From: Actinokineospora xionganensis
GTDB lineage: Bacteria > Actinomycetota > Actinomycetes > Mycobacteriales > Pseudonocardiaceae
Direction: 5' to 3'
Assembly: GCF_014323725.1 (NCBI RefSeq)
Contig: NZ_JABVED010000003.1
Coordinates: forward strand, 434,001-498,000
Length of the DNA: 64,000 bases
The number at the start of each line of letters is the position of its first letter. The stretch's first letter is position 1. Under the pieces are notes generated by a model. The model saw only the letters and a program-made list of their open reading frames with translations. It did no database searches and was not told where the DNA came from. The position numbers and the translations under genes were made by a program. Shown one piece after another: positions 37,589 to 62,203 of this stretch.

Positions 37589-37682
37589 CGCGAGTCCAAC
37601 GTCCAAGACAGTGAGTCCAACGTTCAGAGCAGTGACCCGGGCTCTGAACGTTGGACTCGATGTTCTGAACGTTGGACTCGCG
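37589..37682 (+). repeat. Post-stop palindromic repeat, locus A
   Basis: Two forward and two inverted copies of the unit with core GAGTCCAACGTTCAGAAC. Arms of 42 bp (37589-37630 and 37641-37682) match at 37 positions around a 10-bp loop. It starts 2 bp after the VOC stop and lies between convergent genes. Confidence 0.8.
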
Positions 37683-37698
37683 AGTTGGTGTGGGCGGG

Positions 37699-38274
37699 TC
37701 AGTGGGCGACGTCGAAGACCAGCTTCTGGATGCCGTTCGAGTAGGACTCGCTCTCGACCAGCTTGAGGTTCTGCTTGTCCTTGTCGGCGTCGCTGAACAG
37801 GCGCTTGCCCGCGCCGAGCAGGACGGGGAAGACCAGCAGGTTGTAACGGTCGATGAGGCCCGCGTCGGCAAGGGCGCGGTTCAGCGCGGCGCTGCCGTGG
37901 ACGATGATCGAGCCACCCTCGGTCTCCTTGAGCGCGGCGACGTCGTCGAGCGAGCGCAGGATGGTGATGTCGCCCCAGTTGGACACCAGGTCCTTCTCCT
38001 GCAGCGTGGTCGACACGACGTACTTCGGCATCGCGTTGTAGTCCTTGAAGTCCTCGGTCATCGTCGGCCACACCGGCGAGAACGACTCGTAGCTGACCCG
38101 GCCCATCATCATGGCCGACGCCTCGCCCTGCTCCTGGCCCTTGAGCTCGTAGGCGGCCTCGTCGAACTCGACGTCGTTGAAGGTCCAGCCTGTGTTGCGG
38201 TAGCCCGGTTCCCCGCCGGGCGCCTCGATGACGCCGTCGAGCGAGACGAACGCGGTGGTGATCAGGGTGCGCAT
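37699..38274 (-). CDS. Dihydrofolate-reductase-like (RibD C-terminal) protein
   Basis: 191 residues. ITTAFVSLDGVIEAPGGEP, MMMGRVSYESFSPVWP, KYVVSTTLQEKDLVSNW and GSIIVHGSAALNRALADAGLID are typical of the RibD_C/YyaP-YwjB group of DHFR-fold reductases. NADPH-dependent reduction is likely; the substrate is unknown. The ATG follows AAGGAG by 7 bp. It lies downstream of the ABC exporter pair on the same strand. Confidence 0.9.
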   Translation of the reverse strand: MRTLITTAFVSLDGVIEAPGGEPGYRNTGWTFNDVEFDEAAYELKGQEQGEASAMMMGRVSYESFSPVWPTMTEDFKDYNAMPKYVVSTTLQEKDLVSNWGDITILRSLDDVAALKETEGGSIIVHGSAALNRALADAGLIDRYNLLVFPVLLGAGKRLFSDADKDKQNLKLVESESYSNGIQKLVFDVAH

Positions 38275-38366
38275 TGGTAACTCCTTGTTGTTCTGCTGTG
38301 CTGTCAATCAGTTCGACGAACGGGAGTGCGTCGAATCGACACTCGCGCCGAAAACTTGATGCTCGG

Positions 38367-43538: not shown

Positions 43539-44531
43539 TTAACCCCGGTTGGAGCGGGTGCCGAGCAGGACGTCCTCCCACGAGGGGACGATCGGCCGGG
43601 CCTTCTTGTTCGCCTTCGGCCGCCGGGGCGGTTCGGGCTTGCGGGCGGGCTCGTCGATCAGGGCGTTCTCCGGCTCGTCCCGTTCGCGCGGGGTGGGATC
43701 TTCCTCGACGGACTCGGCCGGGGCCTGCTCCTCGACGATCTCGGCGGGAGCTTCCTCGACTGTGTCCACCAATTCCTCCACCTGCGGAGCGGGCTCCGGG
43801 GTCAGTTCGAAATCTTCCACCACGAAGTCCGCCGCGGGCGGCTCCGAGCCGTTGACCGCCGCGGGCAGTTCCGCCGGACGCTCAGTCGTGTCCAGGTTCA
43901 TCGCGGCCTGGGCGAGTTGGGTGACCGGGCGGACCGTGCGCAGCGGTCGGTTGGGCTGAGGGTCGAGCAGGTCGCGGGCGTGGTCGTCCAATGGTGTGAC
44001 CGTGCCGCCGTGGGCGCCGGGGTGGAACGACCAGTGGGCGCGGTTGAGCGACCTACCGGCCGTCCAGCTCAGCTGCACGACCCACTTGTTGTCCTCGCCG
44101 CGCCACGAGTCCCAGTTGGCCACCGCGTAGTCTTGGCCGCGCAGGCCGAAGGAATGCGCGACGACCTCACCGAGTGTCTGCACGTCCGGGCCGTCCTCAC
44201 GGATCGGGTGCGCGCGCTGGGCGAGGTCGGCGGTGCGGGACCGCTCCAGTAAGACCGGGTAGGCGTAACGCTCGACCTTGTGAGTCGGGATGCCCGCCGC
44301 CTCGGCGACCTGCTCCACGGACTCTCCGGCACGGATACGGGTCTGGATCTCTCGTGGACGCATCTGGCTCTCCAGCTCGATTTCGATCTGGCCGAGTCGG
44401 GTGACGTCTCCTCTGGCGGCCGCACGCAGCCGCTCGTCCGCGGGAAGAGTGAAACGCTCGCCACGCGCCGAGTCTTCGCAGATGACGGTCTTGCCGTCAT
44501 CTCCGAGCCCGACGACCCGCAGCGCGCGCAT
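43539..44531 (-). CDS. sepH: Septation protein SepH (DUF3071)
   Basis: 330 residues. MRALRVVGLGDDGKTVICED begins the DUF3071 domain. MRPREIQTRIRAGESVEQVAEAAG contains a helix-turn-helix-like motif, followed by KVERYAYPVLLER and VVQLSWTAGRSLNRAHWSF. The last 130 residues are a Glu/Pro-rich flexible tail ending in a basic patch (KANKKARPIVPSW). In Streptomyces and mycobacteria SepH stimulates FtsZ assembly at division sites. GGAGGTGCACG precedes the ATG. It lies upstream of DUF2332 and downstream of serC on the same strand. Confidence 0.92.
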   Translation of the reverse strand: MRALRVVGLGDDGKTVICEDSARGERFTLPADERLRAAARGDVTRLGQIEIELESQMRPREIQTRIRAGESVEQVAEAAGIPTHKVERYAYPVLLERSRTADLAQRAHPIREDGPDVQTLGEVVAHSFGLRGQDYAVANWDSWRGEDNKWVVQLSWTAGRSLNRAHWSFHPGAHGGTVTPLDDHARDLLDPQPNRPLRTVRPVTQLAQAAMNLDTTERPAELPAAVNGSEPPAADFVVEDFELTPEPAPQVEELVDTVEEAPAEIVEEQAPAESVEEDPTPRERDEPENALIDEPARKPEPPRRPKANKKARPIVPSWEDVLLGTRSNRG

Positions 44532-44707
44532 CGTGCACCTCCATACGATCTGAGCAGACTTCACTCGCCAGCGTCCCACGGTAGATCGGCGAGTCGCCTT
44601 GACGAACTAGGCGCGCCGTTACCCAAGGGATATCCCGAATGATCTTGCCGTATTCGAACGTGCGACGCACCAAGGTTGTGATCGTTCACCCGTTCGCGTA
44701 TCTGGGG

Positions 44708-46052
<1,345 letters not shown>

Positions 46053-46061
46053 GGGGTTGGG

Positions 46062-47423
46062 TTAGTCGCGGGTGCGCCAGCCGGTCTCGTCGACGCCGCC
46101 GGGGATCGCGTCGGGGGTGCCGTAGGGCTCGCGGGTGAAGACGAAGGTGGCCAGGTCGAAGTGGTTGGGCGCGCCCTCGGCGTCGCGGTGCAGGACCAGG
46201 GTCTCGCCCGCGTAGTAGCCGTCGAGGCCGGTCCAGGTGTCGCGGCCCTCGGGGCGGAAGCGGGACTGCCTGCCGACGCCGGAGACCGGGGCCAGCCGCA
46301 GCCAGCCCTCGGGCAGCAGCCGCAGCAGGTACGGGGTCGGGCCCCAGTGCCACAGGCCCGTCAGCGCCAGCAGCTCCGGGTCGGCCTCGGCCATCGGCTC
46401 CCACTCGGCGGGCAGCGCGGGCTCCAGCTCCTCGACCAGGTTGATCAGGTCGTGCGACAGCGCCACGACCGGGACCCCGGCGGTCGAGTTGGCCATGGTC
46501 AGCGCGCCGGTGCCGGTGCGCCAGTCGATGAGCGCGCTCGCCAGGAAGCCGGGCATCGAGCCGCTGTGTCCCGACAGCCGCCGACCGCCCAGGCGCATCG
46601 CCTCGAAGCCAAGGCCGTAGCCCATCGTCCAGGCGTCGTTGTCGTCGACGTGGACTGGCGTGCGCATCTCCGCGACGGTGTCGGGGTGCAGCACGTCGCC
46701 GGTGTCGCCGCCGATGAAGCGGACCCAGCGGGCCAGGTCGTGCACCGTCGACCACAGCTGCCCGGCCGGGGCCATGGCGCCCGCGTCGGGGGTGGGCTCG
46801 TTGAGCAGGACGTCGGCGAAGGGGTGCACGGCCCAGCCGAGCGCGGCCGGGACCCGCGGCGCCGGGGTGGTGCGGGTCATCCCGAGCGGGGCGAGGATCT
46901 CGCTTTCGAGCGCTTCGAGCCAGCTGGTTCCGCGCACGCGCGCGACCAGCTCACCGAGGACGCCGTAGCCGACGTTCGTGTAGTGGAACCGCGCGCCGGA
47001 GCGGTGGCGCAGCGCGTTCTGGGTGAGGCTGTTCTGCAGCGCCGTCCAGTCGTCGCCGACGGCGCGCTCCCACCACAGGCCGGGCGACTCCGAGGTCAGG
47101 CCCGCGGTGTGGGAGAGCAGCTGCGCGATGGTGACCTCACCGAACGACGTGCCCTGCAGGTGCTTGTCGAGCGGGTCGTTCAGGTCGAGCAGCCCCTCGT
47201 CGCGCAGCCGCATGACCAGCACGGCGATGAACGTTTTGGTGATCGACCCGATCCGGTACTGGGTGTCGGTGGTCGGAGCCTGGCCGTCGACCTTGCCCCG
47301 GGCCCCCGTCCAGACCACGACGCCGTCGCGGACCACGGCCGCGACCAAGGATGGGGCGCGGCTCTCCGCCTGCGCCGTCGCGATCCGGCGGAGCAGGGCG
47401 AAGTCGGTTGTCTGCTGCAGCAT
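46062..47423 (-). CDS. Beta-lactamase-fold serine hydrolase (class C/PBP-like)
   Basis: 453 residues. Active-site Ser60 in SITK, Tyr in YTN (about residue 148) and HSG (about 287) complete the penicillin-binding/class-C set. A C-terminal beta-rich domain of about 130 residues follows. No signal peptide is visible, so it may act in the cytoplasm as an esterase or peptidase. It starts 22 bp after the response-regulator stop, so it is probably the last gene of that operon. Confidence 0.9.
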   Translation of the reverse strand: MLQQTTDFALLRRIATAQAESRAPSLVAAVVRDGVVVWTGARGKVDGQAPTTDTQYRIGSITKTFIAVLVMRLRDEGLLDLNDPLDKHLQGTSFGEVTIAQLLSHTAGLTSESPGLWWERAVGDDWTALQNSLTQNALRHRSGARFHYTNVGYGVLGELVARVRGTSWLEALESEILAPLGMTRTTPAPRVPAALGWAVHPFADVLLNEPTPDAGAMAPAGQLWSTVHDLARWVRFIGGDTGDVLHPDTVAEMRTPVHVDDNDAWTMGYGLGFEAMRLGGRRLSGHSGSMPGFLASALIDWRTGTGALTMANSTAGVPVVALSHDLINLVEELEPALPAEWEPMAEADPELLALTGLWHWGPTPYLLRLLPEGWLRLAPVSGVGRQSRFRPEGRDTWTGLDGYYAGETLVLHRDAEGAPNHFDLATFVFTREPYGTPDAIPGGVDETGWRTRD

Positions 47424-47445
47424 GGAATGAATTGTGGGTCATAAA

Positions 47446-48063
47446 TCAACCCAATAACCCCATCGAGATGGCCTTTGTGACCGCAGCGGTGCGATCCGAG
47501 ACACCAAGTTTATCGAACGATCGGGCCAGATGGGTCTTTACAGTCGCCTCGCTAATGTGTAATGCCCGGCCGACGTCGGCATTGGTCATGCCCTGCCCGA
47601 CCAGCTTCAGCACCTCCCGCTCGCGGGCGGAAAGTGCCTGCTTGGCTGGGGTGCGGACGCTGCGGACGAGCTTGGAGGCGACCGACGGCGCGAGCACCGT
47701 CTCGCCCCGGCTGGCCGCCCGGACGGCGTCGGCCAATTCCAGCGTGGAGGCGTCTTTCAACAGATATCCGGACGCGCCCGCCTCGACCGCGCGCAAAATG
47801 TCCGTATCCGTTTCGTAGGTAGTGAGCACGACCACCGCGGAACCGCCCTCGGCGACGATCTTGGCGGTGGCGCCAGCGCCGTCGAGTCCGGGCATCCGCA
47901 GATCCATAAGGATCACCTGTGGGCGCAGCGCGCGGGCCACCGCGACCGCCTCCTCACCGGATCCCGCCTCGCCGACGACGGTCAGGTCGGGCTCGGCTTC
48001 GAGCATCCCGCGCAGCCCCGCGCGCACCACAGGATGGTCGTCGACCAACAGCACGGTGATCAT
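47446..48063 (-). CDS. NarL/FixJ-family response regulator
   Basis: 205 residues. The receiver domain has [14 protein letters not shown] (acidic pocket), [13 protein letters not shown] (phosphorylated Asp), VLTTY and YLLKDAS. The LuxR-type DNA-binding domain is [22 protein letters not shown]...[11 protein letters not shown]. The ATG overlaps the kinase stop (ATGA). Cognate regulator of the kinase at 48060-49205. Confidence 0.96.
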
Positions 48064-50841: not shown

Positions 50842-50884
50842 GCCTAGATCGTTTCCCGGGACTGGGGTGTCCAGGGACGACCGA

Positions 50885-50932
50885 AGCACTGAACCCCGTG
50901 TCATCCGATCGGATGACACGGGGTTCAGTGCT
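50885..50932 (-). terminator. Perfect 48-bp palindrome after the FN3 gene
   Basis: GCACTGAACCCCGTGTCATC and its exact complement meet at CGATCG with no unpaired loop base beyond the turn. It begins 2 bp after the stop of the FN3-domain gene and precedes the ABC ATPase gene by 43 bp. Confidence 0.75.
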
Positions 50933-50934
50933 GG

Positions 50935-52224
50935 TCAGCTAAGGCGGACTTCGAGGGGGTTGTCGGGGCCGGAGACGTTCGAGGTGACCAGGTTGGTGAC
51001 TGGGGCGCAGCCGGTGAACGGCGCGATGGTGAAGGAGCCCGCCATCGTGAGGTTGACGCTGGACATGTCCAGGGCGGTCGGGGCGGTGGTGCGGCAGGGC
51101 GCGACCGGGAGGGGGAAGCCGAAGATGGTCAGGTTCGACAGGGTGATCCCGACGTCGACACGTGCGGTCCGGAACGTGCCGGTCATCTTCCCGATAGGGG
51201 TGAAGCTGACCCGGGCGGTCGCGGGGAACATGCCGTTGAGGGTCATCGTGGCGGTCGCCGGGTCGAGCTTGAGGTCGGCGGTGAAGTTGCCGGTCAGCAC
51301 GTCGTGGTCGACCCCGAGCGTGCCGCGGAGGGCGACTGAGGTGTGGGCGGCTTTTAGAGTGGCGGCGCCCGCGAGGTTCCAGTCGTGGTGGGTCACGCGC
51401 GGGCGGGTGTGGACCGAAAGCGGTGCGCTGAATGGGGATTGGGGCGAGCGGACGGTGAAGACGTAGTCGGTATCCGGGAGTAGGCCGGAGACGCGCGCGG
51501 TGGTGCCGGGCACGGTGGCGGCCAGTTCGCCGTCGCGGAAGACCTCGTAGGCGGGCTGGCCGGTGGAGTCCCAGGCGAGTTCGACGGTGTCGATGCCGAC
51601 GTCTGTGGTCCGCAGGTTCGCGGGTGCGGCGGGTGCGGCGACCCGGATGGCGGCCAGCAAGTTGTCCTGGCCGGGATCCTGCATGCAGTGGACTTCATGG
51701 GCGATGACAATCGAGCCGTCGCTCCGGCGAAGGGTGAGGTTGAGAAAGACGTCGTAAACCTTGATTGACACCTCGCCTACATCGGGAAAGTCCAGCGGCG
51801 CGAGGTAGGTGTTGAAGACGATTTCGAATTCGTCATCTGGTGCTTGCGGAACCGATATCCAATCGATTTCGGTTTCGGATTCCAAAGGTCTGGCGGGGCC
51901 GACGACGGGTTTGATCCGGATGTCGGAGACCATGGTCACTTTGACGCTGGTCGCCCGGGCAAGCCGCATCATCTCCGCGACTTGGCGGCCCAGTAGAAAC
52001 CGCGACTGCATAGGCGCGCGGTCCAAGCGTCGGCCCTGGGTGACCTGCTCGGGCAAGTCGGTGGCGCGGGTGACCTGGGCAGGCTGGGCATCGATCAGCG
52101 GGTAGGCGCACGTGTGGTTCGTCACGAGCTGGATCGGCTCGGCCGACGCCGAAGTGGAGCCCGCGGCCACCAGCGCGACACCGAGGGCGGCCGCGAGTAA
52201 TCGTCGGTAAACAGGTCTCGCCAT
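50935..52224 (-). CDS. Secreted protein with FN3 domain (possible DUF6801)
   Basis: 429 residues. Signal peptide MARPVYRRLLAAALGVALVA...ASAEP. About residues 35-200 start with CAYPLIDAQPAQVTRATDLP, which resembles DUF6801 modules of actinobacterial exported proteins (tentative). A fibronectin type III domain follows (APANLRTTDVGIDTVELAWD...YVFTVRS). The last 130 residues are a beta-rich domain ending in a Cys-containing GCAPVTNLV segment. Role unknown; cell-surface binding is plausible. Confidence 0.8.
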   Translation of the reverse strand: MARPVYRRLLAAALGVALVAAGSTSASAEPIQLVTNHTCAYPLIDAQPAQVTRATDLPEQVTQGRRLDRAPMQSRFLLGRQVAEMMRLARATSVKVTMVSDIRIKPVVGPARPLESETEIDWISVPQAPDDEFEIVFNTYLAPLDFPDVGEVSIKVYDVFLNLTLRRSDGSIVIAHEVHCMQDPGQDNLLAAIRVAAPAAPANLRTTDVGIDTVELAWDSTGQPAYEVFRDGELAATVPGTTARVSGLLPDTDYVFTVRSPQSPFSAPLSVHTRPRVTHHDWNLAGAATLKAAHTSVALRGTLGVDHDVLTGNFTADLKLDPATATMTLNGMFPATARVSFTPIGKMTGTFRTARVDVGITLSNLTIFGFPLPVAPCRTTAPTALDMSSVNLTMAGSFTIAPFTGCAPVTNLVTSNVSGPDNPLEVRLS

Positions 52225-52326
52225 TGTTCCCCATTCCCAGTCGTCAGTTGCTCGGACGCTAGGGGCGCAATGGAGGTGTGGCAATAGTGTTATCGGAAGA
52301 TGCCAATAAATGGATGAGGCGCGCTT

Positions 52327-52512
52327 TTATATTGCTGATGGAGGTGCGGGTATTTCCGCCAGCAGCGAGGCCCAGGAGGATGCGGGGAGGCGCAGGGTGC
52401 CTGCCTCGGGCGCCTTGGAGTCGCGTAGGCGGACCTCGGTCGAGTAGGCCACCTCGACGCAGGCCGCGCCGTCGCCGCTGCTGAAGCTGGATTTCCGCCA
52501 CTCTGCGTGCAT
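52327..52512 (-). CDS. DUF397 protein
   Basis: 61 residues. EWRKSSFSSGDGAACVEVAY and VRLRDSKAPEAGTLRLPASSW are the DUF397 hallmark. DUF397 proteins are small partners, toxin-like in the Scr1/Scr2 model, of the XRE/DUF5753 regulators. Starts 6 bp after the stop of that regulator, so the two form one operon. Confidence 0.94.
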   Translation of the reverse strand: MHAEWRKSSFSSGDGAACVEVAYSTEVRLRDSKAPEAGTLRLPASSWASLLAEIPAPPSAI

Positions 52513-52518
52513 GTTGTT

Positions 52519-53349
52519 TCAGCCCCGTTCGTGATCGGCTGCGACCATCGCCAGAAACTTCACTGAATCGGCGGAATCCAGGGCGATCTTGGCCAGTCGG
52601 GCTGCCTGGTCTTGGAGCTTGCGTTTGCCCATCGGGCTGTCCACGAAGCCGGAACTGCCTCGGTGCTCGACATAGACAAGCGTTGGGGCATCGGTGAACC
52701 CCAGAACGCTGAAGTAGCCGGGGCTGGCGTATTGGCTGTATTTGAAGGGAATCACACGGATATCAACGTGGGGCTGCTTCGCCCGCTCGATCATCGAGCG
52801 GATCTGTTGCGCGATCACGTGGGAGCCGCCCACCGGCCTTCTCAGCACTGCCTCATCGAGGATGGCGAGGTAACGGGGCGCGGCCCGCTTGGACAGCACT
52901 TGCTGCCTGGCCAGGCGATCCGCCACGCGCTCTTCCACGTGCTCAGTCAGGACGTCGCTGATGATCGCTCGCGCGTAGGCCGGAGTTTGGATCAGGCCGG
53001 GGACATTCGCCGGGGAGAAATTCACGATCGAGGACGCCTGCGACTCGAAGTCGGCCAAGGGCCGCAACAGCTCGCGGAGCTGGTGATCATCCTCGAACCA
53101 GGGGGCCGTCAGCTTCTCGATGTTGGCCATGATCCGCTTGCGTTCCGGGCCGACCACCCCGTAGATCGCCAGCATCGCCGACACCTCAGCCACCGTGGCG
53201 GACCGTTTGGCCCGCTCGATCCGGTTCAGGGTCGCGATGGAGGTGCCGATACGGGCAGCCGCCTGCCGAGTGGTGAGTTCGGCTTGTCCGCGCAGGGTGG
53301 CCAGTGTGGATCCGAGGGCCCGCATCCGCGCGGGAAGAAGATCGCTCAT
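52519..53349 (-). CDS. XRE-family regulator with DUF5753 domain
   Basis: 276 residues. N-terminal helix-turn-helix LTTRQAAARIGTSIATLNRIERAKR. The DUF5753/Scr1-type domain has ASSIVNFSPANVPGLIQTPAYARAI, LDEAVLRRPVGG and VDIRVIPFKYSQYASPGYF. Full length, unlike the remnant at 13488-13970. Works with the DUF397 protein downstream. A 61-bp inverted repeat overlaps its start codon. Confidence 0.93.
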   Translation of the reverse strand: MSDLLPARMRALGSTLATLRGQAELTTRQAAARIGTSIATLNRIERAKRSATVAEVSAMLAIYGVVGPERKRIMANIEKLTAPWFEDDHQLRELLRPLADFESQASSIVNFSPANVPGLIQTPAYARAIISDVLTEHVEERVADRLARQQVLSKRAAPRYLAILDEAVLRRPVGGSHVIAQQIRSMIERAKQPHVDIRVIPFKYSQYASPGYFSVLGFTDAPTLVYVEHRGSSGFVDSPMGKRKLQDQAARLAKIALDSADSVKFLAMVAADHERG

Positions 53350-53403
53350 CCGTTCATGTGATCAGCAGCGTCCTGCTGCGGCAATCACACGAACGGATGA
53401 GCG
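53343..53403 (-). repeat. Inverted repeat overlapping the XRE start codon
   Basis: Arms CGCTCATCCGTTCATGTGAT and ATCACACGAACGGATGAGCG (19 of 20 matched) surround an inner CAGCAG/CTGCTG hairpin. One arm includes the XRE ATG and the following bases. It lies 20 bp after the citrate synthase stop, so it may end that transcript, bind the XRE protein, or hide its start codon in RNA. Confidence 0.65.
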
Positions 53404-53423
53404 ATTTCGGGGGGTGAAACAAA

Positions 53424-54581
53424 TCAGAGGTGGGAGATGTTGTCCCAGCCCTCGACCTCTTCCGGCTTGCGCGGGGCGGGGCCGATGTACTTCGCGGCCG
53501 GGCGGACCAGCTTGCCGGTGCGCTTCTGCTCCATGATGTGCGCGCACCAACCGGCTGTGCGGGCGCAGGTGAACATCGCGGGCATCATGTGCGGCGGGAC
53601 CTGGGCGAAGTCCAGAATCACCGCGGCCCAGAACTCCACGTTGGTCTCGATCGCGCGGTCCGGGCGACGCTCGCGCAGCTCGGCCAGGGCGGCCTGCTCC
53701 AGGGCCACGGCCACGTCGTAGCGCTCGGCGCCCAGTTCCTTGCAGGTGCGGCGCAGCACGCGGGCGCGCGGGTCTTCGGCGCGGTAGACGCGGTGGCCGA
53801 AGCCCATCAACCGCTCCTTGCGGTCGAGGATGCCCTTGACGAACTTGCGGGCGTCGCCGTTCTTCTCGACCTCTTCGAGCATCGGCAGCACGCGGGCCGG
53901 GGCGCCGCCGTGTAGCGGGCCGGACATCGCGCCGATCGCGCCCGACAGCGAGGCCGCCACGTCCGCGCCGGTGGAGGCGATGACGCGGGCGGTGAAGGTG
54001 GAGGCGTTCAGGCCGTGTTCGGCGCCGGAGACCCAGTAGGCGTCGACCGCCTGGACGTGCTTGGGGTCGGGCTCGCCGCGCCAGCGGGTCATGAAGCGCT
54101 CGGTGATCGAGTCGCACTCGTCGATGCGCTTCTGCGGGACCGCGGGCTGATGGATGCCGCGCGCGGACTGCGCCACGTACGACAGGGCCATGACCGACGC
54201 GCGGGCGAGCTGGTCGCGCGCGTCCTCGTCGTTGATGTCGAGTAGCGGCTGGTAGCCCCAGATCGGGGCGAGCATCGCGAGACCGGCCTGCACGTCGACC
54301 CGGACGTCGCCGGAGTGCACGGGCAGCGGGAACGGCTCGGCGGGCGGCAGGCCCGGCCCGAAACGGCCGTCGACCAGCAGCGCCCACACGTTGCCGAAGG
54401 TGACCCGGCCGACCAGGTCCTCAATGTCGACGCCGCGGTAGCGCAGTGCGCCGCCGTCACGGTCCGGCTCGGCGATCTCAGTGCGGAAGGCGATGACGCC
54501 TTCGAGACCGGGGCGGAAACCGTCGTCCGGTTCTGCCGCCACAGCGGGTGTTGTATCGATGTCCTGCACCGCGTTGTGCAT
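53424..54581 (-). CDS. citA: Citrate synthase (CitA type)
   Basis: 385 residues. Condenses oxaloacetate and acetyl-CoA. SGAEHGLNASTF and LMGFGHRVYRAEDPRA hold the two catalytic His. The expected catalytic Asp position reads TNVEFWAAV with Glu. RPGLEGVIAFRTEIAEPDRD and the C-terminal PRKPEEVEGWDNI match the second citrate synthase (Rv0889c type) rather than the main GltA. AAGGCGAG precedes the ATG. Confidence 0.93.
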   Translation of the reverse strand: MHNAVQDIDTTPAVAAEPDDGFRPGLEGVIAFRTEIAEPDRDGGALRYRGVDIEDLVGRVTFGNVWALLVDGRFGPGLPPAEPFPLPVHSGDVRVDVQAGLAMLAPIWGYQPLLDINDEDARDQLARASVMALSYVAQSARGIHQPAVPQKRIDECDSITERFMTRWRGEPDPKHVQAVDAYWVSGAEHGLNASTFTARVIASTGADVAASLSGAIGAMSGPLHGGAPARVLPMLEEVEKNGDARKFVKGILDRKERLMGFGHRVYRAEDPRARVLRRTCKELGAERYDVAVALEQAALAELRERRPDRAIETNVEFWAAVILDFAQVPPHMMPAMFTCARTAGWCAHIMEQKRTGKLVRPAAKYIGPAPRKPEEVEGWDNISHL

Positions 54582-54898
54582 TGTCTCGCCTTTCGCGCCA
54601 TGTCCCCGACGGATTCGCGCAGCGGCAGCGGCGTCAAGACAGGTCGCCGTCGCCGAGCACCACTGCACGGCTGGCCAAACCTTGCCCCTATACCACCGGG
54701 TTAGCAATCGTTCACGCTGGTGTCTTCGGTCACGATCCAGTGGATCGATTAAGATTGTTGACCTTCAACACCCTGTAACACCTGCGCACACGATTGCCCG
54801 ATGTGCGTGGCAGCTGTCACCGGCCGGGCGGTTTCCGTTCATCTCGATTACCCGTAACGTCGCTTGCGGGATCCGACGGGTTGGCGGAGGAGATACGG
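54582..54898. other. Divergent intergenic region of citA and pdxH
   Basis: 317 bp. Two small perfect palindromes: GATCCAGTGGATC (54734-54746) and TGTTGACCTTCAACA (54756-54770). A TATAGG hexamer on the minus strand (54687-54692) could be the citA -10. No gene is seen. The palindromes are candidate operators for a carbon-metabolism regulator. Confidence 0.4.
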
Positions 54899-55558
54899 AT
54901 GGCGGACGGCGACATCACCTTGGAACTGCCAACCATGCGGGTGGCCTACGAGCAAGGTGCGCTCACCGAAGCCGACCTCGCGCCGACCTGGCACGAGCAG
55001 TTGCAGCGCTGGCTCGACGCGGCCCGGCAGGCTGGCGTCGCCGAGCCGAACGCCATGGTCCTGGCGACCGCCAACGCCGAGGGGATGCCGTCCTCACGCA
55101 CCGTCCTGGCCAAGGGCCTCGATGAGCGTGGCCTGGTGTTCTTCACCAACTACACCTCCGCGAAGAGTCACGACCTGATGGCCACCCGGTACGCGTCGGC
55201 GACCTTCCCGTGGTTCGCGATGCACCGGCAGGCCACCATCCGCGGCACCGTCGAGAAGGTGTCGACCGCCGAGACCGCCGAGTACTGGGCCAAGCGCCCC
55301 CGCGGCTCGCAGCTGGGGGCCTGGGCCTCACCGCAGTCGATCGTCGTCAACGGCAGGCCCGCCCTGGAGTCCGCCCTGGCCAACGTCGAGCGCCGATTCG
55401 CCGACGCCGAGACCGTGCCGGTGCCGCCCCATTGGGGCGGTTGGCGAATCCAGCCGGAGGTCGTCGAGTTCTGGCAGGGCAGGCAGGATCGCATGCACGA
55501 CCGCCTCCGCTTCCAACTGACCCGCGACGGCTGGCGAGTACAACGCCTCGGCCCATAA
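54899..55558 (+). CDS. pdxH: Pyridoxamine 5'-phosphate oxidase PdxH
   Basis: 219 residues. Oxidises pyridoxine or pyridoxamine 5'-phosphate to pyridoxal phosphate with [36 protein letters not shown] and [19 protein letters not shown] are diagnostic. Start at [11 protein letters not shown], with GGCGGAGGAG upstream. A post-stop palindromic repeat follows its TAA. Confidence 0.96.
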
Positions 55559-55560
55559 CC

Positions 55561-55686
55561 CCCGCGAGTCCAACGTTCAGGACGCCGAGTCCAACGTTCA
55601 GAACATCGCCGGTTTCGCGATCTCGCGAACGTTGGTCTCGGTGTTCTGGGTGTTGGACTCGCTGTTTTGAACGTTGGACTCGCGGG
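55561..55686 (+). repeat. Post-stop palindromic repeat, locus C
   Basis: Two forward unit copies, then three inverted ones. Outer arms of 19 bp are perfect (55561-55579 with 55668-55686) and an inner pair matches at 16 of 19. Starts 2 bp after the pdxH stop; the next gene is on the same strand, so it is not confined to convergent pairs. Confidence 0.8.
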
Positions 55687-55730
55687 TTGGGGTTGGTGAA
55701 AATCACGCGATGAGTGGGCGTTAGTTGTCA

Positions 55731-55736
55731 TAGGCT
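55731..55736 (+). promoter_or_regulatory. -10 element of MFS gene
   Basis: TAGGCT, 6 bp, GTG: leaderless geometry. Confidence 0.45.
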
Positions 55737-55742
55737 AACGAA

Positions 55743-57032
55743 GTGACTCTCGACGCCGAGCCTCGATCTCGATTCCGCACGATGTTCGGCAAGGCCCTCA
55801 TCGACGTCCGGCCGCTGCGGATCAAGGGGTACCGCAGGCTCTGGGTCTCCACCGCCGTCACCGCCGTGGGCAGTCAGCTCACCGCCGTGGCCGTGCCCAA
55901 GCAGGTGTACGACCTCACCGGCTCATCCGCCTGGGTGGGCATCGCGGGCGCGGTGGGGCTGGTTCCCCTTCTCGTCTTCGGTCTGTGGGGCGGGGCCATC
56001 GCGGACGCGCATGATCGGCGGACGGTCATGATCGTCACCAACATCGGGGTCGCGGTGACCTCCGGCCTGCTGTGGCTCCAGGCGTTCGTGTCGCTCGGCT
56101 CTGTATGGACCGTCCTCGCCCTGCTCGGGCTCCAACAGGCTTTCGTCGCGGTCAACATGCCCACCCGCAGCGCCGCCATCGCACGGCTGGTCCCTGAAGA
56201 GCTGATCCCGCAGGCGAACGCGCTCGGGTTCACCACCTTCACCTTCGGCATGGTGTTCGGCCCGCTCGCCGCGGGGGCGCTGATTCCGCTGCTCGGTTTG
56301 TCCACTTTGTACCTTGTGGACACCGTCGCGCTGGTGCTCGCGCTGTGGATGGTGACCTTGCTGCCCAAGCTGCCGCCGGGGGAGGGGTCTTCCCGAAAGG
56401 CAGGCCTGACCGACATCGCCGACGGCTTCCGCTACCTGCGCGGACGCAACATCCTGCTGGTGTCCTTCCTGGTCGACATCATCGCGATGGTCGCCGGGAT
56501 GCCCCGGGCCCTGTTCCCGGAAATGGCCGAGCGCACCTTCGGCGACCCGCCCGGCGGTGGGCTCGCGCTGGGCTGGCTCTACGCAGCCATCCCCATCGGC
56601 TCCGCGCTGTTCGGCATCTTCTCCGGCTGGTTCGCCCGGATGCCCCGGCAGGGCGCGGTGATCACCATCTCCATCATCGTGTGGGGACTGGCGATGGTCG
56701 GCTTCGGACTCACGACCGCGCTCTGGCTCGCGGTGATCTTCCTGGCCGTCGGCGGCGGCGCGGACCTGATCAGTGCGGTGCACCGCAGTTCGATGCTGCA
56801 AACCGAGGCCACCGACGAGATGCGCGGCCGGATGCAGGGCGTCTTCACCGTCGTCGTCGCGGGTGGACCGCGCATCGCCGACGTCCTGCACGGCTGGGGC
56901 GGTGCCGCGCTGGGCACGGCCGCGGCGGCCACTATCGGCGGAATCCTGGTGGTGGCCTTGACCATCGTCACCGTCGTGGCGGTCCCCAAGTTCTGGCGCT
57001 ACCGGTTCGAACCCCGGGTGGTCGGTGTTTGA
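55743..57032 (+). CDS. MFS transporter (EntS/MFS_3-like)
   Basis: 429 residues with about 12 membrane segments. DVRPLRIKGYRRLWVSTAVTA leads in; GGAIADAHDRRTVMI is the loop 2-3 motif; VNMPTRSAAIARLVPEELIPQANAL (split at ARLVPE) and EATDEMRGRMQGVFTVVVAGG are typical of enterochelin-exporter-like MFS_3 proteins. The substrate is unknown. Confidence 0.9.
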   Translation: MTLDAEPRSRFRTMFGKALIDVRPLRIKGYRRLWVSTAVTAVGSQLTAVAVPKQVYDLTGSSAWVGIAGAVGLVPLLVFGLWGGAIADAHDRRTVMIVTNIGVAVTSGLLWLQAFVSLGSVWTVLALLGLQQAFVAVNMPTRSAAIARLVPEELIPQANALGFTTFTFGMVFGPLAAGALIPLLGLSTLYLVDTVALVLALWMVTLLPKLPPGEGSSRKAGLTDIADGFRYLRGRNILLVSFLVDIIAMVAGMPRALFPEMAERTFGDPPGGGLALGWLYAAIPIGSALFGIFSGWFARMPRQGAVITISIIVWGLAMVGFGLTTALWLAVIFLAVGGGADLISAVHRSSMLQTEATDEMRGRMQGVFTVVVAGGPRIADVLHGWGGAALGTAAAATIGGILVVALTIVTVVAVPKFWRYRFEPRVVGV

Positions 57033-57070
57033 CCTTGTGCGACGGTAGTCGGTGGGACAGTCTCTAATGC

Positions 57071-58444
57071 ATGGTTGACCAACCGAAATCGATCATCGTC
57101 GAGCCCGGGGAGCAGGCACAACCCGAGCTCAAGCGGGTCATCGGACCCGGGCTGCTGCTGTTGTTCGTGGTCGGCGACATCATCGGCACGGGCGTGTACG
57201 CGCTCACCGGGACGGTCGCGGGCAAGGTCGGCGGCGCCCTGTGGCTGCCGTTTCTGATCGCGTTCCTCGTCGCCTTCCTGACCGCCTTCAGCTACTTGGA
57301 ACTGGTCGGCAAGTACCCGCGCGCCGCCGGTGCGGCGCTCTACACGCACCGCGCGTTCAAGATCCAGTTCCTGACGTTCATGGTCGCGTTCGCCGTGATG
57401 TCATCGGGCATCACCTCCGCCGCGTCAGCCGCCCAGGCGTTCGGCAACACGTACCTGCGCAAGCTGATGGGCGACTCACTCACCATCCCGACCGTGTGGA
57501 TCGCGGTCGGGTTCATCCTGCTGCTGGCCGCGGTCAACTTCCGCGGCGTCGCGGAATCGCTGTGGGCCAATGTGGTCCTGACGATGATTGAGTTGTCCGG
57601 GCTGCTGATCGTGATCGTGATCGGCTTCTACGCGATCACCCAGGGCCAAGGCGAGCCCGGCCGCCTGCTGGAGATCGACACCGCGAACCAGACCCCGTTC
57701 ATCGCGGTCACCTCCGCCACGGCGCTGGCGTTCTTCGCGATGGTCGGCTTCGAGGACTCGGTCAACATGGCCGAGGAGTGCCGCGAACCCGTCCGCATCT
57801 TCCCCAAGGCGATGCTGATCGGCATGGGTGTCGCGGCGACGATCTACGTCCTGGTCGCCCTCACGTCCTCGCTGCTGTTGCCCGCCAACGAGTTGTCGGC
57901 GGCGAAGAGCGACGCGCTGCTGCGGGTCGTCTCGGTCGGGGCGCCGGACTTCCCGCTGTGGGTCTTCGCGCTGATCGGCCTGCTGGCGGTCATCAACTCG
58001 GCGCTGATCAACATGCTGATGGCGAGCAGGCTCGTCTACGGCATGGCCAACGAGCGGATCATCCCGCGCGCATTCGGGACGGTGCACCCGTTCCGCCGCA
58101 CGCCGTGGGTGTCGATCCTGTTCACCAGCCTGATCGCGGTGGGCCTGGTGGCGTCGGTCGACATCACCCTGCTCGGCGGGACGACGTCGCTGTTGCTGCT
58201 GCTGGTGTTCACCGTCGTCAACGTCGCCGTGCTCGTGTTGCGCAAGGACCCGGTTGCGCACAAGCACTTCCGTGCGCCCACGATCGTCCCGGTGATCGGC
58301 GCGGTCACCTGCGCCTTCCTGGCGAGCCCGCTTTCGGGCAGGCCCGCCAGGGAGTACGGCATCGCCGCGATCCTGCTGGCGATCGGGGTCGTGCTGTGGG
58401 GTGTCAACCAGCTGGTGTTCAAATCTTCCGTGTCAGACGACTGA
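57071..58444 (+). CDS. APC-family amino acid permease
   Basis: 457 residues, about 12 helices. ELKRVIGPGLLLLFVVGDII and GTGVYALTGTVAGKVGG hold the substrate-site glycine motif of APC carriers. FFAMVGFEDSVNMAEECREP is the conserved helix 6-7 region. Imports amino acids or related cations; specificity is not clear. Follows the MFS gene by 38 bp and overlaps the convergent MBL gene by 12 bp. Confidence 0.92.
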   Translation: MVDQPKSIIVEPGEQAQPELKRVIGPGLLLLFVVGDIIGTGVYALTGTVAGKVGGALWLPFLIAFLVAFLTAFSYLELVGKYPRAAGAALYTHRAFKIQFLTFMVAFAVMSSGITSAASAAQAFGNTYLRKLMGDSLTIPTVWIAVGFILLLAAVNFRGVAESLWANVVLTMIELSGLLIVIVIGFYAITQGQGEPGRLLEIDTANQTPFIAVTSATALAFFAMVGFEDSVNMAEECREPVRIFPKAMLIGMGVAATIYVLVALTSSLLLPANELSAAKSDALLRVVSVGAPDFPLWVFALIGLLAVINSALINMLMASRLVYGMANERIIPRAFGTVHPFRRTPWVSILFTSLIAVGLVASVDITLLGGTTSLLLLLVFTVVNVAVLVLRKDPVAHKHFRAPTIVPVIGAVTCAFLASPLSGRPAREYGIAAILLAIGVVLWGVNQLVFKSSVSDD

Positions 58445-59269
58445 GCCCGTCAGGCGACGCAGTTCGACGGCGTCGTGCGCGGAGAACACGGTGACCTCGT
58501 CGCCGTGGTCGCGGACCAGGTCCCGCAGCCGGGCCTGGTTCGCGACCCGCGCCTTGCTGTCCACCTGCATGATCTTCTCAAACGCGCTCATCAGCGGTGG
58601 GCAGGTCGGGTTCACCGGGTCGATCTCGCCGTGGTTGAAGTACGCGTCGCCCGCGTGCAGCAGCCAGCCCGAGCCGGTGTCGACCGCGACCCCGACGTGG
58701 CCGCGCGTGTGGCCTTCGAGCGGGACCAGCAGGAAGTCCTCGGGCAGCCCGACCAGGCCCCGGACCGCGCGCATGCCGAACCACTCGTCGCCGCCGCCGG
58801 CCTGGTAGATCTCCCACTTCGGGCCGTGCGCCCACTGCGCGGCGCGGAACCGCTGCCGTTCGCGCACAGTCGCCTGCGCGGTCGCGATCGTGTGCTCCGG
58901 CTCGTACACGTGCACGGTGGCGCTCTGGAAGTCGCGCAGGCCGCCGGCGTGGTCGAGGTCCATGTGCGTCAGGATGATGTGCCGGACGTCGGATGCCTTG
59001 TGGCCCAACGCCTCCACCTGGTGGATCGCCGACATCGACGGGTCGGCCACCGGGCGGACCAGGTGCACGAACTCACGGGGCAGCGAGCCCGGCAGCCGCG
59101 CCAGGTCGGTCTCGCCGAAGCCGGTGTCGATCAGGACCAGGCCCTGCTCGCTCTCGACGAGCAGCACATGGCAGACCATGTTCGCCATGCGGAACAGGCC
59201 CGGCTGCCCGTCGAGCAGCTTGCCGCCCAGGGGGTGCATGGAGCCGCAGTTCAGGTGGTGTACGCGCAC
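58433..59269 (-). CDS. MBL-fold metallo-hydrolase
   Basis: 278 residues. LVLIDTGFGETDLARLPG, ILTHMDLDHAGGLRDF, PLEGHTRGHVGVAV and LLHAGDAYFNH give the metallo-beta-lactamase set resembling AHL-lactonase relatives. The central motif reads HxDxDH rather than HxHxDH. The GTG start is 2 bp past the TetR stop, so it is cotranscribed with and probably controlled by that repressor. Confidence 0.9.
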   Translation of the reverse strand: MRVHHLNCGSMHPLGGKLLDGQPGLFRMANMVCHVLLVESEQGLVLIDTGFGETDLARLPGSLPREFVHLVRPVADPSMSAIHQVEALGHKASDVRHIILTHMDLDHAGGLRDFQSATVHVYEPEHTIATAQATVRERQRFRAAQWAHGPKWEIYQAGGGDEWFGMRAVRGLVGLPEDFLLVPLEGHTRGHVGVAVDTGSGWLLHAGDAYFNHGEIDPVNPTCPPLMSAFEKIMQVDSKARVANQARLRDLVRDHGDEVTVFSAHDAVELRRLTGSVV

Positions 59270-59271
59270 GT

Positions 59272-59829
59272 TCAGCGTCCTTTCAACAGTGTTCGCATGG
59301 TCGTGCCGACCGCGTGGAGGGGCGCGGTGTCGCGGCGGGTGCGGGCCAGCAGCTGCGCGCCCTCCAGGGCGGCGAGCAGGGTGGTCGCGACGTCGTCGGC
59401 ATCGGGGATGTTTCGTTCTGCGAGGAAGTCGCGCACCACGCCCTGCCAGGATGCGAACGCGGAGGCGCAGGCTTCGCGCACCATGTCGCCGCCGTCCGGC
59501 GCTACCGTGCCGATAGGACAACCGCGACTGAAGTCGGAGGCGACGAGGTGCTCGGCGAGCGTCTGGATGACCGCGTCGAGCCCGGTCGCGGCGTCGGGGG
59601 CGGATTCGAGGATGACGGAGACCCAGTCGCACAGCTCGCCCGCCGCGAGGGTGACGGCCTCGGCGGCGAGTTGTTCCTTGCCGCCGGGGAAGTGGAAGTA
59701 CAGCGAGCCCTTGGGGAGGCCGCCTTCGGCGAGGACCTGGTTGAGGCCCGTGCCGTGGTAGCCCTGGGTGCGGAACAGGGTCGCCGCGGTCCGCAGCGTC
59801 CGTTCGCGAGTGTCGGTGCGCTTTCCCAT
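59272..59829 (-). CDS. TetR-family repressor (LmrA/YxaF-like)
   Basis: 185 residues. N-terminal RTAATLFRTQGYHGTGLNQVLAEGGLPKGSLYFHF (motif GTGLNQVLAEGGLPKGSLYF) is the helix-turn-helix. The C-terminal domain has DFSRGCPIGTVAPD, typical of the LmrA/YxaF subgroup. It heads a two-gene operon with the MBL hydrolase and is divergent from the aldose epimerase gene. A palindrome in its promoter is the likely operator. Confidence 0.94.
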   Translation of the reverse strand: MGKRTDTRERTLRTAATLFRTQGYHGTGLNQVLAEGGLPKGSLYFHFPGGKEQLAAEAVTLAAGELCDWVSVILESAPDAATGLDAVIQTLAEHLVASDFSRGCPIGTVAPDGGDMVREACASAFASWQGVVRDFLAERNIPDADDVATTLLAALEGAQLLARTRRDTAPLHAVGTTMRTLLKGR

Positions 59830-59835
59830 GACCGT

Positions 59836-59863
59836 ACTATACAGACCGGTCTAGTAATGTCGA
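59836..59863 (-). promoter_or_regulatory. TetR promoter with operator in the spacer
   Basis: On the minus strand TCGACA, 16 bp, TATAGT, then 6 bp to the ATG. The spacer contains the palindrome AGACCGGTCT (59843-59852), close to LmrA/YxaF-type boxes. Binding would block the polymerase directly. Confidence 0.7.
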
Positions 59864-59884
59864 GCCCGCGTACGCTCCTGTTAC

Positions 59885-60784
59885 ATGGCCGATGAGTACG
59901 AGATCACGTATGCCGGAGCCCGGGCCGTCATCACCGCCACCGGCGCGACCCTGCGCGTCTTCGAGGTCGACGGCGTGTCCTACGTGGAGACCTTCCCCGC
60001 CGACGAGCCCGCGCCGATGGGGTCCGGCGCCGTCCTGATCCCGTGGCCCAACCGCACGGCGGGCGCGGTGTGGACCTACAACGGCGAGCCCCAGCACCTC
60101 GCGGTGAGCGAGCCCGCTCGCGGCAACGCCAGCCATGGCTTGGTGCGCAAGGAAACCTGGTCGGCCACGGTCGAGGAGGACTCGTCGGTCACCCTGGAGT
60201 TGACCGTCGGCGACCGTCCCGGCTGGCCCTTCCGGTTCCGCACCACGGTCACCTACGCGCTCGACGTCGAGGGACTCGCCGTCACCCACACCGTCCACAA
60301 CCTCGCCGACCAGCCGATGCCCTTCGGCGTCGGCGCGCACCCGTACCCGCGCCCCGGGCGGGCCGACGCCGAAGACTGCGTGCTCACCCTGGCCGCCACC
60401 ACCCGCCTGCCGCTCGACCCGGAACGCATGGTGCCCACTGGCCCGGCCGTCGCGGACGACTCGTTCGCCGACGGCAAGCCGTTGCGCGGCACGACCCTCG
60501 ACGACGCCTTCGGCGGCTGCGTCCCCGGGCTCGACGGCCTGGTCCGCCATTCGCTGCGCGGCCCGGGCGGCGGCGTGGAGGTCTGGGCCGACCCGGTGTT
60601 CGGCTGGGTGCAGGTGTACACGCCGGATTCGTTCCCCGGCAAGGAATCCGGTCGGGCGATCGCCATCGAGCCGATGACCTGCCCGCCGGACGCGCTCAAC
60701 TCGGGCACCGACCTGCTGCAGGTCTGTCCGCGCGAAACATGGTCGGCATCATGGGGCCTTCGACCTATACAGTCGATTTTGTGA
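59885..60784 (+). CDS. Aldose 1-epimerase family protein
   Basis: 299 residues. Galactose-mutarotase fold: VLIPWPNRTAGAVWTYNGEP, NASHGLVRKETWSA (first His), FGVGAHPYPRPG (second His) and AIAIEPMTCPPDALN (catalytic Glu). Interconverts sugar anomers. TACGCT lies 8 bp upstream of the ATG (59871-59876). The stop overlaps the amidohydrolase start by GTGA. Confidence 0.93.
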   Translation: MADEYEITYAGARAVITATGATLRVFEVDGVSYVETFPADEPAPMGSGAVLIPWPNRTAGAVWTYNGEPQHLAVSEPARGNASHGLVRKETWSATVEEDSSVTLELTVGDRPGWPFRFRTTVTYALDVEGLAVTHTVHNLADQPMPFGVGAHPYPRPGRADAEDCVLTLAATTRLPLDPERMVPTGPAVADDSFADGKPLRGTTLDDAFGGCVPGLDGLVRHSLRGPGGGVEVWADPVFGWVQVYTPDSFPGKESGRAIAIEPMTCPPDALNSGTDLLQVCPRETWSASWGLRPIQSIL

Positions 60785-61995
60785 CTATCGCGGTAACGAA
60801 CGGCTATGTGGTTCCGGTCGATGGAGATCCCATCCACGGCGGAACGGTCCTGATCGACAACGGCAAGATCGTGGCCGTCGGCGCGGACGTGGACGTCCCC
60901 GACGGCGCCGAGATCGTCGACGCCGGGGGTTGCTGGGTGCTGCCCGGGTTCGTCGAGGCGCACGCCCATGTCGGCGTCTATGAGGAAGGCGAGGGCTGGG
61001 CGGGGCAGGACACCAACGAGATGACCGACCCGGTCACCGCGAAGGTCCGCGCCATCGACGCCATCAACCCCGACGACGAGGGCTTCCGCGACGCGCTGTG
61101 CGGCGGGGTGACCACGCTGGTGGTGAAACCCGGTTCCGGCAACGTGATCGGCGGGCACACGGTCGCGGTGAAGGCCTGGGGCCGGACCGTGGAGGACATG
61201 CTGCTGCGGGACCCGGTGAGCATGAAGAGCGCGCTCGGCGAGAACCCGAAGCGCGTCTACGGCGAGAAGAAGGTCATGCCGTCGACCCGGCTCGGCGTCG
61301 CCGCGATCATCCGCGAGGCGATGACGAAGGCGCAGGACTACAAGGCACGCAAGGAACACGCGGCGGGCGAGGGTAAGCCGTTCGACCGCGACCTCACCAA
61401 TGAGGCGCTCGTCGCGGTGCTCGACGGTGACCTGCCGTGGTGTCAGCACTCGCACCGGGCCGACGACATCGCTACCGCGATCCGCTTGGCCGACGAGTTC
61501 GGCTACCGGCTGGTGATCAACCACGGGACCGAGGCGCACCTGCTGGCCGACCTGCTCGCCGAGCGGGACATCCCGGTGGTGACCGGGCCGCTGATCGTCG
61601 GCCGGTCCAAGGTGGAGGTCCGCAGGCGCGACTTCCGCAATCCCGGCATCCTCGCCCGCGCGGGCGTGCGGATCGCGCTGACCACCGACGCGCCGGTCGT
61701 GCCCATCAACTTCCTGGTGCACCAGGCGACTTTCGCGGTGAAGGAAGGCCTCGACCCGGTTGAGGCGATCCGCTCGATCACCGTCAACCCGGCGGAGATG
61801 CTCGACCTCGACGACCGGGTGGGCGCGCTCAAGCCCGGCCTCGACGCCGACCTCGTGATCTGGTCCGGTGATCCGCTCGACGTGATGAGCCGCGCGCTGC
61901 GGGTCTTCATCGAGGGCCGCGACGTCTACCACTTCGACGAGGCCACCGGCTTGGGCGTAACCAAACCCGCCTTCTACGCCGAACCCCGCCCCTAA
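60781..61995 (+). CDS. Amidohydrolase (imidazolonepropionase-like)
   Basis: 404 residues. LPGFVEAHAHVG (HxH metal ligands), PWCQHSHRADD, LVINHGTEAHLLADL and ALTTDAPVVP, with C-terminal LDLDDRVGALKPGLDADLVIW, match the amidohydrolase superfamily. The true substrate is unknown. The GTG overlaps the epimerase stop; a TACAGT hexamer 7 bp upstream could also give an independent leaderless transcript. Locus D follows its stop. Confidence 0.9.
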   Translation: MTIAVTNGYVVPVDGDPIHGGTVLIDNGKIVAVGADVDVPDGAEIVDAGGCWVLPGFVEAHAHVGVYEEGEGWAGQDTNEMTDPVTAKVRAIDAINPDDEGFRDALCGGVTTLVVKPGSGNVIGGHTVAVKAWGRTVEDMLLRDPVSMKSALGENPKRVYGEKKVMPSTRLGVAAIIREAMTKAQDYKARKEHAAGEGKPFDRDLTNEALVAVLDGDLPWCQHSHRADDIATAIRLADEFGYRLVINHGTEAHLLADLLAERDIPVVTGPLIVGRSKVEVRRRDFRNPGILARAGVRIALTTDAPVVPINFLVHQATFAVKEGLDPVEAIRSITVNPAEMLDLDDRVGALKPGLDADLVIWSGDPLDVMSRALRVFIEGRDVYHFDEATGLGVTKPAFYAEPRP

Positions 61996-62006
61996 ACACC
62001 CTCCGC

Positions 62007-62203
62007 GCGAGTCCCACGTTCCCGACACCGAGTCCCACGTTCCCGACAATGAGTTCCACGTTCCCGACACCGAGTTCTCACTTCGCGACAGCCAGTCCCG
62101 AAACCTGGGGGCCAGCGGCGGCGCGAAATGCGAACTCGCTGTCCTGAACGTGGAACTCACTGTCGGGAACGTGGGACTCGTGGTTCTGGGCGTGGGACTC
62201 GCG
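62007..62203 (+). repeat. Post-stop palindromic repeat, locus D (largest copy)
   Basis: Four forward units starting at 62009, 62030, 62051 and 62072 (exact 21-bp period; GAGTCCCACGTTCCCGAC form) and three to four inverted units (about 62131-62201). Changes in units, such as GAGTTC for GAGTCC, are matched by GAACTC in the other arm. Lies between the amidohydrolase (+) and the convergent membrane-protein gene. Confidence 0.85.

Follow-up and report, generated by a model that had tools for sequence, protein, structure and literature searches.

The stretch of Actinokineospora xionganensis DNA analysed here, which we call the window, comprises 64 kb of contig C23 (positions 434001-498000; the genome is denoted G000) and contains four long hairpin elements, A to D, built of inverted units of about 21 bp. 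Their probable tie to a single enzyme gene, which is enclosed by the same kind of repeat elsewhere in the genome, is the subject of this report. The elements and the genes that they adjoin are the following.

37173..37586, plus strand: glyoxalase/vicinal oxygen chelate (VOC) gene, its start taken from our gene caller; its stop precedes element A, and its longest open reading frame (ORF) starts at 36981
37589..37682: element A, two forward and two inverted 21-bp units; forward cores at 37592 and 37613, inverted cores at 37646-37658 and 37667-37679; between the convergent glyoxalase/VOC gene (stop ends 37586) and a RibD_C gene (stop at 37699)
45927..46052: element B, of the 120-bp class, with two clear forward and three inverted units; lies next to the 3' end of the beta-lactamase-family gene on the minus strand
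46062..47423, minus strand: beta-lactamase-family gene; its stop lies 9 bp from element B
54899..55558, plus strand: pyridoxamine 5'-phosphate oxidase gene (pdxH); its stop precedes element C, and its longest ORF starts at 54794
55563..55684: element C, which follows the stop (ending at 55558) of the pyridoxamine phosphate oxidase gene; a same-strand major facilitator superfamily (MFS) gene lies downstream
60739..61995, plus strand: amidohydrolase gene; its stop precedes element D, and its longest ORF starts at 60043
62006..62203: element D, a longer element with the GAGTCCCACGTTCCCGAC variant; between two convergent genes, the amidohydrolase gene (its stop ending at 61995) and one with no Pfam match (stop at 62205)

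Elements A, B, C and D fold into hairpins with energies of -69, -109, -92 and -145 kcal/mol, and for each of them none of 200 shuffles was equally stable (z-scores of -10.8, -18.1, -13.4 and -15.6), which bears out the four loci of inverted units of about 21 bp reported in the initial annotation. The outer CGCGAGTC termini lie at 37589/37682 (A), 45927/46052 (B), 55563/55684 (C) and 62006/62203 (D). Allowing up to two mismatches, GAGTCCNACGTTC occurs 24 times in the window against 8.7 times expected, a number that 0 of 100 shuffles reached. The shared core described in that annotation is real, but it represents one of several variants. The genes adjoining the elements are mutually unrelated, and the distance from stop to nearest terminus amounts to 2, 9, 4 and 10 bp for A to D (VOC, beta-lactamase, pyridoxamine oxidase and amidohydrolase genes, respectively). 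Each copy had been described as following the stop codon of a gene read in the same direction. This is correct for the VOC, pdxH and amidohydrolase genes but not for B, as the beta-lactamase gene is encoded on the minus and not on the plus strand, with B at its 3' end. The placement also requires amendment: to the right of A, B and D lies a minus-strand stop (at 16, 9 and 1 bp), as a second or as the only adjoining stop, and A and D sit between convergent genes.

In the 6.81-Mb assembly, the core GAGTCCAACGTTC has 119 exact matches, compared to 0 for a reversed control pattern. We analysed 1,236,413 bases of this genome closely, consisting of the window, stretches picked for known units and 240 kb of contig C1 taken unselected. 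This DNA contains 54 repeat clusters, none of which falls into the unselected 240 kb, where no GAGTY triple was found either. The unit consists of GAGTY or GTGTY plus 16-17 nt and is arranged in tandem with a 21-bp period to form arms whose outer end is CGCGAGTC; the palindrome is formed by whole inverted arrays, and the unit is not a short palindrome tagged by an unpaired GTAG or CGTC. The length from first to last core was within 2 bp of 78, 120, 162 and 204 in 7, 19, 4 and 1 of the 54 clusters, 42-bp steps that correspond to 2, 3, 4 or 5 units per arm, and the remaining 23 clusters differ. A forward-then-inverted structure, as claimed before, is present at A to D but absent from 12 of the 54 clusters, in which all units have a single orientation.

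Thirty-six of the 38 long hairpins in this DNA are made of inward-reading GAGT units, one (L051) has outward-reading units and one is unrelated. Among the loci listed, base pairing often extends past the units into locus-specific sequence. For 34 loci, leaving aside the unrelated hairpin (L068:3538), L051 and two hairpins without a terminus at both ends, the arms differed on average by 2.35 of 45 nt within a locus versus 8.46 between loci. Because arms within a locus differ far less than arms of different loci, the two arms of a locus change together. Local expansions were also seen: L067:9953-10198 contains 2 forward versus 9 inverted units, and in the sister species Actinokineospora alba (G201) a single region (L150, 8846-10279) contains 34 detected units in about 1.4 kb. 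An Rfam scan of the window, L041, L053 and L070 yielded no family match at any element; the sole hit was an Actino-pnp RNA (RF01688, 62.2 bits) elsewhere, at L041:14569-14653.

The placement and orientation at gene 3' ends extend past the window. Of the outer termini, 69 of 90 in A. xionganensis, 30 of 42 in A. alba and 5 of 7 in a third genome, G044, were located -30 to 60 nt from a same-strand stop, compared to 4.3% (of 4,000), 5.1% and 4.8% of random positions; termini without a measurable same-strand stop (4 of 94, 2 of 44 and 2 of 9) were dropped. Random scatter relative to stop codons, named beforehand as a refuting outcome, did not occur. Sequence contexts like TAACCCGCGAGTC recur at gene ends. 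The genes at L042:10042-10064, L068:9934-9956 and L070:9943-9965 enter the element and end at a TGA in the unit linker, and these element-borne stops give their products C-terminal tails such as PRVQRSGQ.

Such positions would also suit host 3'-end elements, i.e., selected bidirectional terminators poor in T-tracts or mRNA protectors, with the nuclease as a regulator or as an accident of location. Consistent with this explanation, 41 of the 90 A. xionganensis termini lie 0-10 nt past the stop (24 in A. alba and 3 in G044; random, 0.5%), and convergent gaps are enriched: by the calls of a simple, crude purpose-made gene caller, unchecked against annotation, they hold 35 of the 54 clusters versus 194 of 1,112 adjacent gene pairs, element-bearing gaps counted in. 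Selection at the RNA level is unsupported, as G.U pairs do not outnumber A.C mismatches in the stems that can be oriented by a gene (5 versus 7, few cases); the ratio of 19:12 in stems of convergent elements is uninformative by symmetry. As for plain intrinsic terminators, the hairpins are strong, and a terminator scan of 44000-63900, covering B, C and D, gave 8 hits versus 6.9 expected, with one touching an element (inner B), and does not set the elements apart from shuffles.

The arms of one element, L078 (contig C67, near 284.6 kb), are separated by about 1 kb of DNA that includes a minus-strand gene of the DUF559/MTES_1575 type. In the A. xionganensis DNA examined, this DUF559-type gene was the only one to lie between arms. 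The encoded protein of about 300 amino acids is single-copy in this genome, and most genomes with the nuclease gene contain one match each (at 1e-10). It combines an AbiEi-type winged-helix part (residues 1-190) with a PD-(D/E)XK nuclease of the Vsr/homing-endonuclease type (residues ~193-297), with DUF559 scoring above the Pfam cut-off and MTES_1575 below it. The putative catalytic residues E194, D231, E242, H249 and D256 are invariant among homologues, and the predicted fold matches the Vsr type in the nuclease part and the AbiEi fold in the N-terminal part. As modelled, the partner is likely a DNA-cutting enzyme. A co-occurring enzyme, for which a search had been proposed, exists, but it is an AbiEi/Vsr-type nuclease and not a transposase associated with repetitive extragenic palindromic (REP) sequences of the TnpA kind.

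The enclosure is not peculiar to this genome. Among 30 loci of the nuclease gene, taken from 30 Pseudonocardiaceae genomes, 28 have the gene between inverted repeat copies. GAGTY arrays flank it on both sides in inverted orientation at 17 loci; 12 of the remaining 13 were read (L167 was left unread), and 11 of these have inverted unit copies on both sides (degenerate at L160, single units at L169 and L179), while L158 has no inverted flanking copies. Of the genomes whose flanks lacked GAGTY, seven had GTGTC units there and two, both of genus g20, had a single unit. An extra locus beyond the 30, L217, again showed inverted copies on both sides. This repeated enclosure led us to reject the reading of the nuclease as a chance neighbour. 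In A. alba, L138 (with a gap of 2.9 kb) and L150 also looked like elements with a gene in the loop but were discarded as neighbouring elements or tandem arrays, judged from array positions only.

At the start of the nuclease gene, DnaA-box-like sites (TTRTCCACA) are present in 18 of 31 loci (L155-L184, L217), all in gene direction, and in about ten of those loci two sites lie 18-20 bp apart; going by this motif, nuclease gene expression may be tied to replication. The sites also suit a second alternative, that the arrays are operators or chromosome-organising sites bound by an AbiEi-like regulator or nucleoid protein while the nuclease acts elsewhere, e.g., in repair or defence. As the arrays flank the nuclease gene itself, autoregulation is plausible. 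Gyrase or integration host factor is said to act at bacterial interspersed mosaic elements. Furthermore, AbiEi and Rv2827c are described in PMC7319586 as binding 23-bp inverted repeats at their own promoters, which is near the 21-22-bp unit.

To relate enzyme and repeat, we searched 297 genomes of the family for three GAGTY spaced 21-22 bp apart and counted the hits. The protein was scored as present at E<=1e-40, giving 121 genomes with and 176 without it; 206 of the 297 match at 1e-10, weaker relatives thus being counted as absent. The protein is found in 75 of the 81 genomes with at least 10 GAGTY hits versus 46 of the 216 others (Fisher p 1.2e-30, or 2e-29 without G032 and G088, whose reversed controls were as high as the counts). 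These 46 genomes, which at first spoke against the link, were mostly accounted for by the GTGTY and single-unit forms. In a first test of GTGTY, 12 protein-bearing genomes, six of them with flanks read, had 23-477 hits, of which the 23 hits of G249 were not above its control; five g20 genomes had 0-1 hits, A. xionganensis 6, A. alba 0 and 11 protein-free genomes 0-7. Searched for with up to one mismatch, the g20 unit occurred 38-230 times in all six g20 genomes and not at all in 15 others. Among the remaining 34 protein-bearing genomes, GTGTY reached 16-460 hits above reversed controls in 21 and did not in 13, and 14 further protein-free controls had at most 5 hits. Altogether, 107 of the 121 protein-bearing genomes have at least 10 hits of one of the three repeat forms.

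Within the genus Actinokineospora, only A. xionganensis and A. alba have both protein and repeats; in the other 14 genomes nothing matched the protein at 1e-10, and the pattern had 0-5 hits, which among those listed do not resemble the units. Among 394 genomes across the class, two matched the protein at 1e-30, namely A. xionganensis and one more member of the Pseudonocardiaceae. A wider contig scan with a two-unit 21-bp pattern, in which the genome of the window was perhaps not included, returned five stretches from an Amycolatopsis strain and an Amycolatopsis metagenome-assembled genome.

A. alba, of the same family, allowed a comparison gap by gap, as most aligned blocks of the two genomes are 91-96% identical (about 93% overall). 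For 24 of the 54 clusters, both sides could be anchored in one piece of A. alba DNA. Units were detected automatically in 13 of the counterparts and by eye in two more (L067 and L075, the latter at a cut edge), and nine were without units. Nine of the 13 carry another dialect, GAGTCGCC..., usually with looser units further inside, and four have only G000-like or other units. Six of the nine dialect gaps are hairpins in A. alba; the other three (L038, L050, L056) are one-sided in A. xionganensis too. Two shared loci, L071/L118 and L078/L146, lie outside this table of 24 gaps. At L146, the position that corresponds to L078, A. alba likewise has the gene between arms, and these are written in the A. 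alba dialect. The two nucleases are 57% identical, compared to 99% for the next gene and 97% for an unrelated gene, and in a tree the A. alba protein falls outside the clade (support 100/99) that joins the A. xionganensis protein with that of another Actinokineospora species. The tree skips L158 (stop) and includes L183 apparently in a wrong frame (end branch 8.5); the placement of A. alba is independent of both. As far as sequence comparison goes, identity and tree placement fit an exchange of the allele together with the dialect.

Elements A, B and D have no units at the matching A. alba gaps, and C could not be anchored in one A. alba piece. The gap matching B has other sequence, and the one matching D measures 22 bp versus 242 in A. 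xionganensis. In the gap that corresponds to A there is an ordinary GC-rich hairpin, and two such pairs were noted: L141:1813-1886 and L147:7176-7274 in A. alba versus the elements at 37589-37682 and L080:8186-8264. It looks as if element and terminator replace each other in the same gap. Ordinary GC-rich hairpins also follow the gene beside the nuclease locus at L192, L193 and L194; these cases, like the gaps matching A and L080, favour host 3'-end elements. A. alba moreover contains at least two further families of long inverted repeats, with arms TGCCTGTTTGGGTGG... and CCCCTCGTCCTGGCC..., unlike the GAGT family (loci L116, L118, L119, L120, L126 and L128).

Taking together the repeat itself, its placement, the gene in the loop, the co-occurrence, the matching dialects, the conserved catalytic-type residues and the predicted fold, we consider it probable (about 70%) that the hairpins are dispersed copies of a repeat belonging to one dedicated enzyme, as REPs belong to REP-associated tyrosine transposases (RAYTs). 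From this arrangement we infer binding, cutting, copying and mobility of the system. The AbiEi-like part would bind the 21-22-bp unit, the nuclease would nick or cut either at gene ends or within an extruded hairpin, and repair would bring in units copied from another array. With repeated copying, the arms would stay alike and the unit number would shift by 21-bp steps, and a new nuclease allele would rewrite the copies of a genome into its own dialect. Repair copying of units would explain the linked change of arms, the 21-bp growth and the turnover of dialects. Once in place, copies may act as bidirectional terminators.

Somewhat short of an even chance, in our estimate, is the farther-reaching proposal that these are family-wide self-spreading repeats driven by a homing-type nuclease rather than a transposase, the allele setting the dialect by a gene-drive-like conversion. 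On this tentative proposal, allele exchange in A. alba would have been followed by rewriting of the repeats at many gene ends, in both arms where there are two, and host terminators might in places have been replaced by elements.

Several observations weigh against assigning the repeats to a dedicated, mobile enzyme. The Fisher p-values overstate the link since the genomes are related. Fourteen of the 121 protein-bearing genomes have no excess of the tested repeat forms, and six of the 176 protein-free genomes have at least 10 GAGTY hits (G004, G064, G129, G162, G181 and G216, with a partial protein match in G129 and G216). At least 10 GTGTY hits were found in 0 of 25 protein-free genomes, a sample that covers only 25 of the 176. 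For most of the 21 further GTGTY genomes, the evidence consists of counts without units seen, with flanks read for G033 alone, and some GTGTY hits may stem from other repeats of 21 bp, as with the runs in G187. The A. alba protein may also have diverged fast, without any exchange of alleles. We recognised no target-site duplication, although no scripted test was made, saw no insertion with a duplication and saw no transposition event. Finally, in 400 kb of G044 all eight clusters are one-sided without any long hairpin; one-sided arrays can thus persist, and the hairpin is not essential.

Among the alternatives, host 3'-end elements survive best, yet we regard them as unlikely: they leave unexplained the tie of the repeats to one enclosed nuclease gene, the difference in dialect at the same gaps of sister species and the one-orientation arrays, including those of G044, and the lack of a G.U preference noted above also speaks against them. 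Operator or chromosome-organising sites appear less probable still, given that many copies lie at gene 3' ends, unlike an operator, that dialects differ at orthologous gaps of genomes about 93% identical and that the catalytic-type residues are invariant. Miniature elements of a known transposon, be it REPs or REPINs with a RAYT (Y1/HUH) or DDE-type miniature inverted-repeat transposable elements (MITEs) with 21-bp end sites, are very improbable: hairpins, intergenic sites downstream of or between convergent genes and species-specific sequence are as described for REPs in PMC3733652, but the RAYT/Y1 family PF01797, searched for in A. xionganensis alone among the genomes of the family, had 0 matches there while 5 of 14 control genomes matched it, the DUF559-type gene alone lay between arms in the DNA examined (DDE families were not searched for), and the unit number varies with no one fixed element length.

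The standard example of a bacterial repeat present in many copies and linked to a single enzyme gene is the REP with its RAYT. The initial guess of a REP- or MITE-like origin came close in kind, but the REP transposase family is unmatched here. For RAYTs, a gene flanked by two inverted REPs, coevolution, rapid gene evolution and a correlation with REP number are described in PMC2817692, and a fast-evolving RAYT changing with its repeat in part also in PMC3116915. Likewise, the repeats studied here are dispersed intergenic hairpins, two inverted copies frame the nuclease gene, the number of repeats goes with the presence of the enzyme, and the enzyme evolves fast and changes with its repeat, the counterpart of coevolution being one species pair and matching dialects only. 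In contrast to a RAYT of the Y1/HUH type, the enzyme is AbiEi-like plus Vsr-like PD-(D/E)XK; in contrast to a REP palindrome of 20-40 bp, the repeat is a 21-22-bp tandem unit with arms differing by whole units; and the system was found in Pseudonocardiaceae only, both matches among the 394 class genomes belonging to this family. We do not file it as a RAYT system because the defining Y1 enzyme was not found in A. xionganensis.

Other known systems share single traits. CGTC-tagged REPs also lie downstream of or between convergent ORFs, but they are reported from other phyla and, in PMC3733652, without a dedicated transposase, and the term 'actinobacter' is not mentioned there. I-Bth0305I (PDB 3r3p) and Vsr (1vsr, 1cw0) differ in that the nuclease described here is fused to an AbiEi-like part and enclosed by multi-copy repeats, and unlike a Vsr-like homing endonuclease, it showed no intron at the loci read. 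The AbiEi antitoxin and Rv2827c of type IV toxin-antitoxin systems differ from the present protein, which carries a nuclease domain. The initial annotation knew of no named family with this sequence; in agreement, literature searches in a library without most subscription papers and bioRxiv gave no description of the core sequences or of DUF559 tied to inverted repeats. By analogy, the system would work like REP/RAYT with an enzyme and a repeat that are not of the REP/RAYT kind, and it looks like a previously undescribed self-spreading repeat system.

If true, a second, unrelated enzyme would bear a REP/RAYT-like signature, suggesting that this arrangement arose more than once. The system would allow enzyme specificity to be compared with genome-wide repeats in about 100 genomes, including two sister species with different alleles, and it would give a role to a DUF559-type protein that is annotated as unknown or Vsr-like. 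The Pseudonocardiaceae include many natural-product producers, and for this family the finding matters for the reading of 3' ends, terminators and assembly breaks.

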